This document shows positions 45,034 to 52,889 of a stretch of DNA of 64,000 nt, piece by piece (position 1 is the stretch's first letter; every line of letters starts with the position of its first letter). This stretch comes from Methylacidiphilum kamchatkense Kam1 (lineage in GTDB: Bacteria > Verrucomicrobiota > Verrucomicrobiia > Methylacidiphilales > Methylacidiphilaceae): NCBI RefSeq assembly GCF_007475525.1, contig NZ_CP037899.1:1860001-1924000 (forward strand). The letters are read 5' to 3'. Both the position numbers and the translations under genes were made by a program. The notes under the pieces are model-generated. The model was given only the letters and a program-made list of their open reading frames with translations. It searched no databases and had not been told where the DNA came from.

Positions 45034-45267
45034 CTAATAGCGGGCGTCAACATCCACAACAACTATGGCAATAATGATCCGATCATGGATACGGACAGGG
45101 GTGAGATTGGGCGGCTTTTTCGAACGTAAAGAATCAACCGTTTTAGTGGTGGTATAGATTTTAATCCATTTAGAGTCAATAGCTGTTTTCTTTTCTAGTC
45201 TTCTAAAGTTATGGTCGTATGAAAATATGAAATCCTTATTTCCCTCTGCTATCCTATAGTCAAATGC
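45034..45267 (-). pseudogene. Gene fragment without a start codon
   Basis: A 77-codon open frame bounded by a stop at 45268-45270 and lacking an ATG, GTG or TTG near its beginning. The peptide reads like a genuine C-terminus: FSYDHNFRRLEKKTAID, SKWIKIYTTTKTVDSLRSKK, then TPVRIHDRIIIAIVVVDVDARY. It looks like the end of a protein whose upstream part has been lost. I do not recognise the family. It lies immediately before the methyltransferase gene on the same strand. Confidence 0.45.
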
Positions 45268-46126
45268 CTATTAGCTACTCCAATCATGTAGATCGCATGC
45301 TTCCTCTCGGATCGCCAGCTCGTTGAGTTTTGAAAAGAACCGTCCTTCTCTGTCAATACGGTAGAAGAAGTTTATAATCCATGAGATGCTCTCCATCCGC
45401 TACTCTACTCAACTCCCGAGCTGGATATTATCGATACCATTGAGAAGCGACTCCATCCCAACACCCATAGTTTTGAACCCACTTTCCCTTCGGCCCATCC
45501 TGCTCATTCTCCAAAAGGCGCGTCTTATCCCAAATTTCCAGGATGGAATCCAGAGGAAAAACTTACCAAGCTATTCACATCCATATTGGTTTACCTACAT
45601 CACGTATTAGAGTTGCAGACCCGTCAGCATCTTCAGCTCCCAATAGCTTTGCATCCTTCAGCCAAAGACAAGATGTTTTCCCAGATACCAAGCCTATGCC
45701 TGAATGTCATCGAAAGCCAGATCCAAGTGGTTCGCCCTGTATGGCTTCAGGAAGCAATCCGCGCCTTTTGGAGAAGAACCAAAGAGAGAATGAATAATGG
45801 ATTCAAGGACTTCGTCATTTCCGCCGATCATAGAGATCGAGTATTGTTAATGCTTCCCCCATTCGTTAATACGAGCAGGAATCTGCTCCTTTTGTATTTT
45901 ACAGGATAACCTTCAAGGTCTTCGTAGAAATTACAACTGATGTGAAGATGCCTGCTCCGTTTGCCCTTTCCCTTGTCAGTTTTCCTTCGTCGAGCTGAAG
46001 AGTTAATTTTGCTGCATCAAGCAAATAGGAAAAGCAAACTCAGATTCCACACACCTGTATCTCTTTCTCAAGACAAACGGCTGATTTCTCCTACCAGAAA
46101 GAATGACAATTGAAGTTTTTATTGTG
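45268..46126. other. Non-coding or decayed stretch before the tRNA gene
   Basis: No sound gene is seen in these 860 bases. A plus-strand frame is open without a start from 45385 to 45909 (175 codons, Pro/His/Leu-rich), and two smaller overlapping frames share it, which is typical of unconstrained sequence or a decayed gene. Together with the fragment at 45034-45267 this suggests a former gene or element that has eroded. No terminal repeats or transposase motif were found. Confidence 0.4.
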
Positions 46127-47160: not shown

Positions 47161-47673
47161 ATGGTCAAGCCTAGATATTTTAAGTCCTCATTTTTTTTCT
47201 TGCTCTTTTGTTTTTTCTCCCTTCAGTTAATGGGAGAAGAAACTTCTAAAAAAGATCGAGAAATCTTCATTCCCGATAAAGGCATCAAAATTATCAAAGT
47301 GCTTGAGATTCTCAACGACAAAAAACTAAAAGCAGGGGGACTTCAATCTCTTATCTATGAAAGAGCCTATTGGAACTGGGGAGCAATTGTCCCATCGGAT
47401 TTTCGAGCGCGTGCTGGCCAAATTTATATTTTCGCATGGAAAAAGAGTGGCAAACCAGAAGCCCTCACTGCAAGATTCGAATACAGACAGCTGAAGACAA
47501 AAGAGGAGGTATGGTCTCAATCGATCTATTATCCACATGCCCATGGAGCTATTGATTCGATTTTCAAGGTTATTGGTGATGCCTATTTTACAAATGGAAC
47601 GGTTTTTGCCTGGAGGTTTTCTGTATTAAAAAATAACGTGATTATTGCTCAAACTAAATCCTTTATTTGGTAA
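47161..47673 (+). CDS. Exported protein of unknown function
   Basis: The 170-residue protein starts 24 bases after rsmI and has a signal peptide (basic start, Phe-rich core, cleavage near LMGEE). The mature part has DKGIKIIKVLEILNDKK, ERAYWNWGAIVPSDFRAR, EYRQLKTKEEVWSQSIYY and SVLKNNVIIAQTKSFIW, a beta-sandwich-like pattern. I know no family for it. Its place before exbB suggests an envelope role, but that is only context. Confidence 0.65.
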   Translation: MVKPRYFKSSFFFLLFCFFSLQLMGEETSKKDREIFIPDKGIKIIKVLEILNDKKLKAGGLQSLIYERAYWNWGAIVPSDFRARAGQIYIFAWKKSGKPEALTARFEYRQLKTKEEVWSQSIYYPHAHGAIDSIFKVIGDAYFTNGTVFAWRFSVLKNNVIIAQTKSFIW

Positions 47674-47778: not shown

Positions 47779-48549
47779 ATGAAAGATGAGTTTTGGCTGT
47801 TCGCACAGCTTTTTTTAGCCGCCAAACAAAATCCTCGAGTCATTCAAGAAGCTATCTCGCTTTTCGACATTGTGCACAAAGGCGGATTGATCATGTGGCC
47901 AATCCTCTTTTGCAGCGTTTTGGGCTTAGGGGTTTTTTTGGAAAGGCTGTTTATGTACCGGCAGTGTGAGCTGCCCATCGAAGAATCGATAGCAGGAATT
48001 AAAAATTTAATTCACAAAGGAAATTTCGATGAGGCCCTCCTTCGGGCCTCCTCTTTTTATGGACCGATAGGTCGAGTGATTCGACAGATTCTCCTCTTTC
48101 ACTATCTGCCTTTATCAGAATTAAGAGAAGCAGCCAAAGATGCTGCCCAACTTGAAATTCCAAAACTTGAAGCGCATCTTCCGATTCTTTCAACTATTGC
48201 TTCCATCAGCCCTCTACTAGGTCTTTTAGGGACCGTCAATGGAATGATCGAGGCCTTTTTGGCAATGAATAGAGCGTCTGGAACTGTTTCTGTCACCGAT
48301 TTAGCCTCTGGTATATGGATGGCTTTAGTCAGCACGGCTGCTGGAATATCCGTTGCGATACCCACACAGATCGCCTATAATTTTTTAATTACAAGACTCT
48401 CTGGTATTCTAGGAGATATAGAACGGGTATCGACCGAATTAATTCATGCCTTGATAGAATACCGTTGGCAAAATAACCAGGGTTTTGAAGAAGACAACGC
48501 AACCAATGAAATTGCGCCCAAGACTGAACCTTATGACCGGCACAATTAA
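47779..48549 (+). CDS. ExbB/TolQ/MotA-family proton channel protein
   Basis: The 256-residue protein has three membrane segments: GGLIMWPILFCSVLGLGVF near residues 35-54, then LPILSTIASISPLLGLLGTVNGM near 135-157, and IWMALVSTAAGISVAIPTQIAYN near 177-199. The signatures SPLLGLLGTVxGM and ALxSTAAGISVAIP are those of ExbB/TolQ. Such proteins use the proton gradient with an ExbD/TolR partner to drive TonB or TolA. Its 3' end overlaps the exbD-like start by 44 bases, and a TonB-like gene follows, so a TonB system is likely. Confidence 0.9.
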   Translation: MKDEFWLFAQLFLAAKQNPRVIQEAISLFDIVHKGGLIMWPILFCSVLGLGVFLERLFMYRQCELPIEESIAGIKNLIHKGNFDEALLRASSFYGPIGRVIRQILLFHYLPLSELREAAKDAAQLEIPKLEAHLPILSTIASISPLLGLLGTVNGMIEAFLAMNRASGTVSVTDLASGIWMALVSTAAGISVAIPTQIAYNFLITRLSGILGDIERVSTELIHALIEYRWQNNQGFEEDNATNEIAPKTEPYDRHN

Positions 48550-48957
48550 TCCGGTGCCATTGGTCACTGTGATACTTCTGCTCCTTTTTTCTTCTTGCTT
48601 GGTTCTTCCTTTGTAACTTTACCTGGCATTATTGTTGAACTGCCTAAAAGTCCCTTTGGAATCAGTGTTCCATTAAGCAATCTGATCGTATCGGTTTTTC
48701 TCGAACCTGAAAAAAAGGACACATCTACTGGCTTTTCTGCCAAAAGAGAGGTGCTTTTCTACGTCAACGATCAAGAATTGAATTTTGAGGAACTAAAAAA
48801 AATGATTCCAGAATTTGCCTCTCAGCATCCCAACCAAATGGTTATTATTAAAGCGGACAAAGAAGTGCCTCAGGCCTATATCATCGAATTAACAAATCTT
48901 TTTTTAGCTCAGAATCTATCTGTCTTACTGGCAACTCAACCCGATGCAGAACATTAA
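48506..48957 (+). CDS. ExbD/TolR-family protein, frame-broken as written
   Basis: The start ATG at 48506 gives MKLRPRLNLMTGTINPVP, and the frame breaks at six T (48585-48590). One more T joins it to LLGSSFVTLPGIIVELPKS and a soluble C-terminal domain, 150 residues in all, with VIIKADKEVPQAYIIEL as in ExbD. In ExbD the membrane segment has an Asp needed for proton flow, in the pattern P-L-V-D-V; here it reads PLVTVILLLL, with Thr. The protein may be non-conducting or the true residue may lie elsewhere. It lies between the exbB-like and tonB-like genes. Confidence 0.75.
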
Positions 48958-49740
48958 TTTATCAGAAACCAACAAAATTGATCGGCCTTTTTATCTCCAA
49001 ACCTCCTCTATCTTTTTTGGATTACTTTTTCAATCCTCTTCCATTTTTTCTTTCTTCTATTTTGTAAGGTAACCTATGTGGCCCCACTCCAAGAACCTTT
49101 ACCTAAAAGCCGCGTATATATTTTTTCTCCCCAAAATCCGACACTCGATCCTTTTCTAACCAATAGGATCAAATTCCTTTTAAAATATAGAGATCCAATC
49201 GCTCTCATCCATCCAAATGCCAATGAAAAAAGAAACCATAGCAGAATCCAACCCCATCTATTGCTTGCCAAAACCAATTTTCCTCCACCTACTCCAATTC
49301 CGACTGATAAAGAAGTTGATTTTCTAAAAATAAAGACTGTGTCTTTGGACCAATGTGCCAAAAGTTTTCCTTTATCGAAAGAAAGACCGTCTTTTGGAAA
49401 AGTCCTACCGGTAATGCCCAAGAAATCCATTGCTTTTTTTGATGATGTCTTAAAAAAAAGACTGCTTTCTTCTTGGGAACTACCTAAAATCTCCACCAAT
49501 CTTTTATCCGAAGCAAGAATAACGAAACTGGTAATTTCTGTAGAACCAGATGGCATCGTCCATAATGCCCTTCTAGAAGAAAGTTGTGGCAACGAACAGG
49601 CCGATCTACTGGCACTATCAGAAGTACGCAGGCTCCATTTTGCTCCAGATCCTCTTACGAAAAGAACAATTTGGGGAAAGATAAAAATTTTTTGGAGCTA
49701 CAGTGACAATGCTCAGAGCCGCAATGAGGCAGTCCCATGA
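48944..49740 (+). CDS. TonB-like energy transducer, frame-broken as written
   Basis: Starting at ATG 48944 (overlapping the exbD end by 14 bases), the frame gives MQNINLSETNKIDRPFYLQT and a membrane segment, then breaks at six T (49044-49049). One extra T continues it into CKVTYVAPLQEPLPKSR and a 265-residue protein. A proline-rich linker (FPPPTPIPTD near residue 120) leads to a TonB_C-like end: TKLVISVEPDGIVHNALLEES...LLALSEVRRLHFAPDP. TonB carries energy from ExbBD to outer-membrane receptors. As written only the part from GTG 49078 is open. The family is likely from both pattern and place. Confidence 0.7.
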
Positions 49741-49961
49741 TGCGAATCACTTTATCTGAAGCTTTTTTTTTCTATGCAACTCTTTCACTTGCTTTTCTAT
49801 TCATTTTATGGCTTTTTTTTTATTCCAAGAGGCGTCGCTTGGAAAAGCGGCGCATTTTTATTTGTCGGTTCTGCCAAGAAAAAGTAGAACTCGAACCTGG
49901 ACAAATAACATTACGGTGTCCAAGATGCAATGCTATTCAAAATGTTGAAATGAAAGTTTAA
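49737..49961 (+). CDS. Small membrane protein with a zinc-ribbon tail
   Basis: The 74-residue protein begins with one membrane segment (about residues 10-30, FFYATLSLAFLFILWLFF), a basic stretch KRRRLEKRR and a zinc ribbon CRFC(x16)CPRC (about residues 43-66). The start overlaps the previous stop (ATGA), so it is translated with the TonB-like gene. Such one-anchor zinc ribbons are common near exb genes in this kind of genome, but no function is known to me. Confidence 0.75.
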   Translation: MMRITLSEAFFFYATLSLAFLFILWLFFYSKRRRLEKRRIFICRFCQEKVELEPGQITLRCPRCNAIQNVEMKV

Positions 49962-49981: not shown

Positions 49982-51160
49982 ATGGGCATGTGGATAGGAA
50001 GGAATCGAAAAGCAAGAGTCTGTTATGGATTTGACGAAATTTCGTTAGTCCCAGGAGAAGTCACTATTAATCCTGAGGAAGTCGATACCAGCTTTGAAAT
50101 TACCCATCATCCTTCAGGCAAAACCATCAAATTAAAAATCCCAATTTTAGCTAGTGCCATGGATGGGGTGACCGACCCTCGGTTTTGTATTGAAATGAGC
50201 CGACTCGGTGGGATTGGAGTCATCAATCTTGAAGGGATTCAAACGCGCTATGAAAACCCTCAAGAAGTCATTAATGACATTATAAAATGCGACCAGAATA
50301 AGGTAACCGAACTCCTTCAAAAAATTTATTCTGCTCCTGTCAAAGAAAAACTCATTGTTGCAAGAATCGAAGAGCTTAAAAAAGGCAATGCTATTGCGGC
50401 GGTTTCCTCTATTCCTCAAACTGCCGAAACCTATGGATACATTGCGCAAGAAGCTGGAGCCGATCTCTATATTGTTCAATCTACTGTAAGCACAGTCAGG
50501 CATATTTCTACCCGATATAAAACCCTGGATTTAAAGCAATTTTGCCAAAATATGCGTATTCCTGTGCTTGTAGGCAACGCCGTGACTTATAATGTAGTCC
50601 TCCAGTTGATGGAATGCGGAGTCAGTGGGGTATTAATTGGTGTTGGCCCAGGAGCTGCATGCACCTCAAGGGGAGTGCTTGGTATTGGGGTGCCACAAGT
50701 CACCGCCACAGTCGATGCTGCTGCAGCTAGAGATACCTATTATAAAAAAACAGGCCGCTATGTTCCAATCATTACCGATGGGGGGATGCGAAGAGGCGGA
50801 GATCTTTGCAAAGCCATTGCCTGCGGATCTGATGCTGTCATGATTGGGTCTGCTTTTGCCCGAGCCGAAGAAGCTCCTGGAAAAGGATGTCATTGGGGAA
50901 TGGCCACTCCGCATGCGAACCTGCCACGAGGCACATTGATTCGCATGGGAATATCTGGACCGCTTTCCCAAATCCTTTATGGTCCAGCTACAGTGGATGA
51001 TGGTTCTCAAAATCTGGTTGGAGCCCTCGCAACATCCATGGGAAATGTGGGTGCTGCAACAATAAAACAATTTCAAGAAGCCGAAATTATCATTGCTCCA
51101 AGTATTCAGTCCGAAGGGAAGCTTTTTCAAATGATTCAATCGGTGGGCATGGGGAGATAA
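49982..51160 (+). CDS. GuaB3-family IMP dehydrogenase
   Basis: The 392-residue barrel oxidises IMP to XMP or belongs to the closely related GuaB3 group. GGAGGT just upstream sets the ATG. Visible are the substrate loop MDGVTDPRF near residue 59, the catalytic loop [20 protein letters not shown] in two pieces near 218-238 with the nucleophilic Cys, [10 protein letters not shown] near 260 and [14 protein letters not shown] near 280. The CBS module of standard GuaB is absent. The partner guaA lies 167 bases on, which supports a role in GMP synthesis. A GuaB3-type enzyme may be a weak or different dehydrogenase, so activity should not be assumed. Confidence 0.87.
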
Positions 51161-51327: not shown

Positions 51328-52889
51328 ATGAAAAACCCCAAGCTTTTGCCTGAAAAAGGATCCATAGCGATCATCGATTTTGGGTCCCAATATACGCAGC
51401 TTATTGCGCGGCGAATCAGGGATCTTGGCGTCTTCTCAACTATCCTTTCTTGGGAAAGTTCTTTTCAAGAGTTATGTGAACTTTCTCCAGCAGGCATTAT
51501 CCTTTCAGGTGGACCCTCAAGTATTCTTGAAGAATCGGCTCCTACTTTTGATCATCGTATCTTCGAACTAGGGGTTCCTATCCTTGGCATCTGTTATGGC
51601 TATCAATGGATAGCCGCTCATTTTGGAGGAAAGGTTGAAAAAGGAGAACAAGGAGAATACGGTCGTACTTCCCTTTCGATTATTAATCCAACAAGGCTTT
51701 TTGAAGGACTCCCCTCTCATTTGACCGTTTGGAATAGCCATGGTGATAGAGTCAGTGTATTGCCTGAAGATTTTGAAGTTATTGCTTTTACGGCTGATGA
51801 ACCGCATGCAGCAATCTTTAATCTTAAAAAGAACATCTATTGTCTTCAATTCCATCCGGAAGTCACTCATACGGAGCATGGAGAAAAAATATTAGCTAAT
51901 TTTCTATTTGAAATCTGTCATGCCAAGGCTAACTGGAATCTTGGCTCTTTTATTGAAGAAAGTGTTGAGGAGATTAAACGGAAAGTGGGTAAAGAAAGAG
52001 TCATTTTAGGCATTAGTGGTGGAGTAGATTCTTCGGTAACTGCAGCCCTTATTCATAAAGCCATTGGGGAAAGACTCTATCCGATTTTTGTGGATACAGG
52101 CCTTTTACGAAAAAACGAAGCCCAAATCATTTCAGAGCTCATGCGTCGGAACCTTGGAATCAAAATACATTGCTTTGATGCATCAAAGGAATTTTTGACC
52201 AAATTAAGAAACGTTGCCGATCCAGAAAAAAAAGGAAGATCATTGGCAATTTGTTTATTCGTGTTTTCGAACGCGCTGCACAAAGTGTCGGAGAAGCCAA
52301 ATTTCTTGCGCAAGGAACCTTATATCCGGATATCATCGAAAGTGCGCATTCTGGTCGAAAAGGGGCTTGCCTAATAAAAAGCCATCATAATGTTGGAGGC
52401 TTACCTAAAAGACTTCCTTTTAAGCTCATAGAACCTCTACGATTTCTTTTCAAGGATGAAGTCAGAAAGGTTGGCACGCTCCTTGGTTTATCTCACGAGC
52501 TGCTCTATCGGCATCCTTTTCCAGGACCAGGACTAGCGGTTCGTTGTTTAGCTCCAATTCGAGAAGAAAATCTACGGATTCTTAGAGATGCGGATGCGAT
52601 TGTCATCGAAGAAATAAAAAAGGCTGGCTACTATGAGAAAGTATGGCAGGCTTTTGCAGTGCTTTTGCCTGTCCGCTCTGTAGGAGTCATGGGGGATAGA
52701 CGAACCTATGACTTTACTATCGCACTGAGAGTGGTAGAAAGCATTGACGGCATGACTGCCGATTGGGCCAAGTTGCCTCCAGAACTTTTATCCAGAATAG
52801 CTAATAAAATTATAAATGAAGTTGAAGGAGTCAATCGCGTCGTCTACGATATTTCTTCAAAGCCGCCTGCAACCATAGAATGGGAATGA
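51328..52889 (+). CDS. guaA: GMP synthase (glutamine-hydrolysing), frame-broken as written
   Basis: GuaA makes GMP from XMP, ATP and glutamine. The amidotransferase half has [18 protein letters not shown], the Cys nucleophile in GICYGYQW and the catalytic His in QFHPEV. The PP-loop [10 protein letters not shown] follows near residue 226. The frame breaks at eight A (52226-52233): with nine A the protein reads through to [22 protein letters not shown] and the C-terminal dimer domain ending PPATIEWE, 520 residues, the family size. Because GMP synthesis is needed for growth and both parts are perfectly kept, a lost A in the assembly or slippage is much likelier than a dead gene. The stop overlaps hisD (ATGA). 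Confidence 0.9.

Follow-up and report, generated by a model that had tools for sequence, protein, structure and literature searches.

An ExbB-ExbD-TonB cassette of Methylacidiphilum kamchatkense Kam1 with threonine in place of the proton-binding aspartate of ExbD, and recurrent loss of this aspartate in Verrucomicrobiota

The proton-binding residue of ExbD, TolR, and MotB proteins is an Asp, with Asp25 as its counterpart in Escherichia coli ExbD. The ExbD of Methylacidiphilum kamchatkense Kam1 that is encoded at 48506-48957 of the window (the whole stretch of 64,000 nucleotides analyzed here, NZ_CP037899.1, positions 1,860,001 to 1,924,000) has Thr21 instead, which raises the question of what an ExbB-ExbD-TonB complex can do with such a subunit. 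In ExbD, TolR, and PomB, subunits of ion-driven 5:2 motors, this Asp has been called "absolutely required for activity" (PMC12905483), and the D25N variant of E. coli ExbD is inactive (PMC11658791). A sequence-only reading of the locus had noticed the Thr and offered three options, namely that the complex does not use protons, that the protein is a structural paralogue, or that another acidic residue substitutes.

The Thr21 site and the Kam1 record

The exbD gene starts from the ATG at 48506 on the forward strand (MKLRPRLNLMTGTINPVPLVTVILLLLF), overlapping the end of exbB (47779-48549) and lying directly downstream of this ExbB/TolQ gene. In the HMM profile alignment to the solved Serratia ExbD (PDB: 7ajq), Thr21, whose codon ACT is at 48566-48568 on the same strand, falls in the column of the Asp of EINVTPFIDVML, and the transmembrane-helix Asp that marks an ExbD (E. 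coli D25) is missing from the Kam1 protein. When read through its frame break, this protein matches PF02472 with 60.3 bits (cut-off 25.4) over residues 12 to 145, covering the transmembrane segment and the periplasmic domain, and the A1 profile matched the solved ExbD at E 1e-12 in a profile search. The frame break consists of one missing T, the run at 48585-48590 being T6 in Kam1 and T7 in SolV and others; the gene is intact, with 150 codons, in SolV and other species, and intact in four other Methylacidiphilum species. As the site lies upstream of this one-base deletion, the Thr21 call does not depend on the frame correction, just as had been claimed.

Two more deletions of this kind were found close by. 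One T is missing from the run at 49013-49018 in tonB when compared with SolV, and guaA (51328-52889) is cut into two overlapping ORFs because an A8 run near 52228 has lost one base. Within 4 kb, homopolymers in exbD, tonB, and guaA are each one base shorter than in SolV. Since guaA is expected to be essential, these three deletions are most likely assembly errors, a sign that the Kam1 record contains false indels. The Kam1 chromosome is closed, with 2,202,032 bp, and was obtained as a PacBio-only HGAP3 assembly (PMC6688271). Another exbB of the Kam1 genome (L195, L005; G000:C1:2178012-2178711), which adjoins an Asp-bearing exbD, is open for 114 aa only and looks frameshifted, perhaps by another homopolymer error. 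We also noticed about 0.9 kb in Kam1 (45208-46126), with short overlapping ORFs, that is absent from SolV at the same place and is a possible mobile-element remnant.

Homopolymer errors thus do occur in this record, but a change from GAY to ACT takes two substitutions, so that one miscalled base cannot explain Thr21, and Thr or Asn is common to independently sequenced genomes; a sequencing error at the Asp codon is ruled out on these grounds, and we leave it practically no weight. Gene decay, that is, a cassette being lost in Kam1 as the one-base deletions in both exbD and tonB could indicate, is very improbable as well. Both deletions are in homopolymer runs, guaA within the same 4 kb has a third one of this kind, the record is from a PacBio-only assembly, and the orthologues are intact in four other species, with an exbD dN/dS of about 0.03-0.1.

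The sequence-only reading had proposed an alignment with ExbD proteins of related genomes and had taken Asp in all of them as the sign of a base error. In this alignment no Asp was found at the cassette ExbD site among the members of the same family, which carry either Asn or Thr throughout. Within the genus Methylacidiphilum the residue is Thr in three genomes (including SolV/G009 and G011) and Asn in two (G008 and V4/G010), the sister genus has Thr in 7/7 genomes, and a third genus has Asn. The replacement of Asp by Thr in the transmembrane segment is therefore confirmed both by the alignment and by the orthologues. The exbD dN/dS is 0.03-0.13 within two Asp-less genera, from which it follows that purifying selection on the protein is strong even without the Asp.

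The cassette and the recurrent loss of Asp

Comparison of neighboring genes identified a class-wide order, found whole or in part, of rsmI - Lp170 - exbB - exbD - tonB - zinc-ribbon protein - guaB, which in the window runs along the forward strand from Lp170 to guaB. Lp170 (47161-47673), upstream of exbB, is secreted, 170 aa long, and predicted with confidence to form an Ig-like beta-sandwich (AF2 pLDDT 90). It is without a Pfam match, and its model finds only weak fold matches, for example, Amuc_1102 and PDE6D-like sandwiches. In many Verrucomicrobiae loci it is a conserved neighbor of exbB, and it is a candidate partner of the ExbBD-TonB complex. ExbB (47779-48549), of the MotA/TolQ/ExbB family (PF01618, 98.6 bits, cut-off 22.9), retains both pore threonines, T152 and T186 corresponding to E. 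coli T148 and T181, respectively. At the periplasmic channel mouth the Glu is lost, with M181 at the position of E. coli E176 and TolQ E173. As this residue also varies (Q, G) in Asp-bearing paralogues, Glu176 is no strict criterion for ExbB, and a coupled loss of it together with the Asp was dropped from consideration.

The cassette TonB (48944-49740, frame broken as described above) has an N-terminal transmembrane helix with an S-x3-H motif, a proline-rich linker, and a C-terminal TonB fold. The transmembrane His is invariant in 15/15 aligned cassette TonBs and absent in a further clade, for example, in L074 and L081. PF03544 scores below its cut-off (13.5 vs 24.6 bits); the cassette TonB profile matches TonB of the PDB at E 9e-5, and the best Foldseek matches of the AF2 model, the pLDDT of which is a modest 68.5, are C-terminal domains of TonB and TolA. 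Between tonB and guaB lies a gene conserved with the cassette for a small single-TM protein with a CxxC...CxxC zinc ribbon (49737-49961). The guaB gene itself (IMP dehydrogenase, 49982-51160) is a conserved syntenic neighbor and is probably not part of the complex. Departures from this order were also seen: in genus g6, which belongs to the same order, an ORF of 706 aa (L218:5259-7376) lies between the cassette exbB and exbD, as does a 706-aa gene in two genomes of family f4, and in genus g10 exbD stands apart from exbB.

The synteny of the cassette is alike in versions with and without Asp, and for this reason the exbD genes are to be regarded as positional orthologues rather than scattered paralogues. 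No second exbD was seen beside the cassette in any locus examined; an adjacent second ExbD supplying the Asp was rejected as a candidate, each cassette in these loci having a single exbD. The search that had been suggested for another exbBD set with Asp was successful elsewhere in the genome, where Kam1 encodes five other ExbDs, all with Asp and each in an exbBD pair; the genome also has 14 TonB-dependent-receptor plug matches and about ten TonB_C matches. The idea of a structural paralogue therefore holds insofar as five Asp-bearing ExbDs exist, but not in the sense of a stray copy, as the Asp-less protein is the sole exbD product of a syntenic cassette that has Asp-bearing positional orthologues.

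In a sample of 177 ExbD sequences, mostly from Verrucomicrobiae with outgroups, Asp is present in 79 and absent in 98, where it is replaced by Asn (60), Thr (22), Ser (5), Gly (4), Cys (3), Gln (3), or Met (1). Parsimony on the rooted tree gives about 15 losses of Asp and 6 apparent regains, with more losses if regain is disallowed. In a set of 80 loci gathered by ExbB similarity, which as a sample is biased ("not unbiased"), non-Asp residues occur in records of Verrucomicrobiota, Lentisphaeria, Omnitrophota, and Hydrogenedentota and in one unclassified bin; all proteobacterial, spirochaetal, acidobacterial, and other ExbDs of the same 80 loci have Asp.

The proton path and the role of the complex

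The proton path is reported to be formed by ExbD D25 together with ExbB T148 and T181 (PMC12965293, PMC12905483, PMC12583513), and the two threonines were followed through 168 ExbB-ExbD pairs. Thr148 is kept in 168/168 pairs. Thr181 is replaced by Ala in 26/90 Asp-less pairs vs 0/78 Asp pairs; replacement by Ser, which keeps the hydroxyl, is found both with and without Asp (8/78 Asp pairs), and the confinement of Thr181 loss to Asp-less pairs, which in a first, smaller sample had covered any loss, holds in the enlarged sample for Ala alone. All 12 independent gains of Ala took place on Asp-less branches, with P between 1.6e-4 and 6e-4 by branch length, where about half of the tree length is Asp-less and the range reflects how ambiguous nodes are resolved. 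The stricter tests on independent pairs, each weak by itself, gave a median p of 0.06-0.125 with few informative pairs, the direction being never wrong for Ala. The loss of Asp is thus real, recurrent, and selected, and a threonine of the proton path has also been lost in some lineages.

The pore helices gave no support to the option that another acidic residue substitutes. Around the site, from -7 to +16, no ionizable residue occurs in 45/98 Asp-less ExbDs, that of Kam1 among them, and no pore-helix column of ExbD or ExbB has gained an acid specifically in the Asp-less set, by which a replacement acid in these helices is rejected. Position 158 of ExbB (E. coli N154) carries an acid slightly more often in Asp-less pairs (55/90) than in Asp pairs (22/62), but this acid, being frequent in the latter as well, is no specific replacement.

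The complex could still be energized without Asp if a relay of water and polar side chains (Asn, Thr, Ser) worked together with ExbB Thr148, if another ion were used, or if an acidic residue of ExbB close to the periplasmic mouth took part. We consider this rather unlikely. The replacements are Asn, Thr, or Ser in 87/98 cases, Thr148 is invariant, and the excess of acids at position 158 would fit; however, Gly, Met, Gln, and Cys occur too, the 158 acid is not restricted to Asp-less pairs, E. coli ExbD with Asn in this place is inactive (PMC11658791), and ExbB Thr181 decays. Equally doubtful is a hetero-oligomer in which the Asp-less ExbD dimerizes with an Asp-bearing ExbD, one of the five that the Kam1 genome encodes, so that a single working Asp would run the motor. 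It would be in line with the heterologous TolR-like gene pairs of the PVC group (PMC12204202) and with the non-equivalence of the two Asp residues of the TolR dimer (PMC12965293). On the other hand, no locus examined has a second exbD beside the cassette, all other exbB and exbD genes of the Kam1 genome are already paired, and the loss of ExbB Thr181 is unexpected if one Asp still needs it.

Of the three options, the remaining one, a complex that works without protons, has the best support, given the lack of a replacement acid, the purifying selection, and the restriction of Thr181 to Ala changes to Asp-less lineages. Judged from the sequences, the cassette is somewhat more probably than otherwise a genuine, selected ExbB-ExbD-TonB unit in which proton coupling has been lost (a pseudo-motor), its ExbD, ExbB, and TonB otherwise retaining the features of their families, and proton-dependent energization of TonB appears disfavored. 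The extension to the whole class, with ExbBD-TonB pseudo-motors of Verrucomicrobiota that have repeatedly discarded the proton carrier, after which the proton path of ExbB decayed, under selection for a non-motor role in the envelope, seems to us evenly balanced between right and wrong.

In such a proton-uncoupled complex, the ExbB5-ExbD2 core would still assemble, with TonB on its rim, and would be unable to bind and pass a proton, and so to rotate or deliver force. The complex may then serve as a passive inner-membrane anchor or organizer across the envelope for TonB and perhaps also for the Ig-like secreted protein, or alternatively as a regulated clamp on the C-terminal domain of TonB. That the Asp was lost again and again within one syntenic context suggests a job of the cassette for which proton flow was not strictly necessary even when Asp was present. 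Several observations count against uncoupling: the main hints of a remaining polar function of the pore are the invariance of Thr148 even without Asp and the preference for Asn, Thr, and Ser, and with the apparent regains of Asp, the Asp-less state could still be part of an energized machine. With its repeated loss of Asp and the matching decay of the partner threonine, the cassette offers natural tests to separate the functions of ExbBD-TonB that depend on proton flow from those for which a scaffold is enough, and it is a reminder that a Pfam match alone may mislabel an ExbD as a proton channel.

Comparison with known systems

No earlier description of an Asp-less ExbD was found in the open-access literature searched. 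The closest known system is the ExbB-ExbD-TonB Ton motor of E. coli and Serratia (PDB: 6tyi, 7ajq), with which the Kam1 cassette shares the order exbB-exbD-tonB, an ExbD composed of a transmembrane helix and a periplasmic domain, the ExbB pore helices with Thr148 and Thr181, and a TonB with the transmembrane Ser-x3-His motif and the C-terminal fold. It differs from the Ton motor by the absence of Asp25 and of ExbB Glu176, by a TonB_C score under the Pfam cut-off, and by its linkage to rsmI, the Ig-like secreted protein, the zinc-ribbon protein, and guaB.

TolQ-TolR-TolA (PDB: 8odt, 9ddm) belongs to the same superfamily, and the ExbB profile of the cassette scores best against TolQ. However, the equivalents of TolR Asp23 and TolQ Glu173 are missing, and neither tolB nor pal was seen among the conserved neighbors of the cassette. 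Variant Exb/Tol motors have been described from the same phyla, namely the vWA force transducers of the PVC group and its heterologous pairs of tolR genes (PMC12204202); the TPH-vWA proteins of that study retain the pore-helix Asp, in contrast to the cassette with its single, Asp-less exbD. Set beside these systems, the proteins of the cassette are members of known families by homology that do without the residue by which the function of those families is defined.
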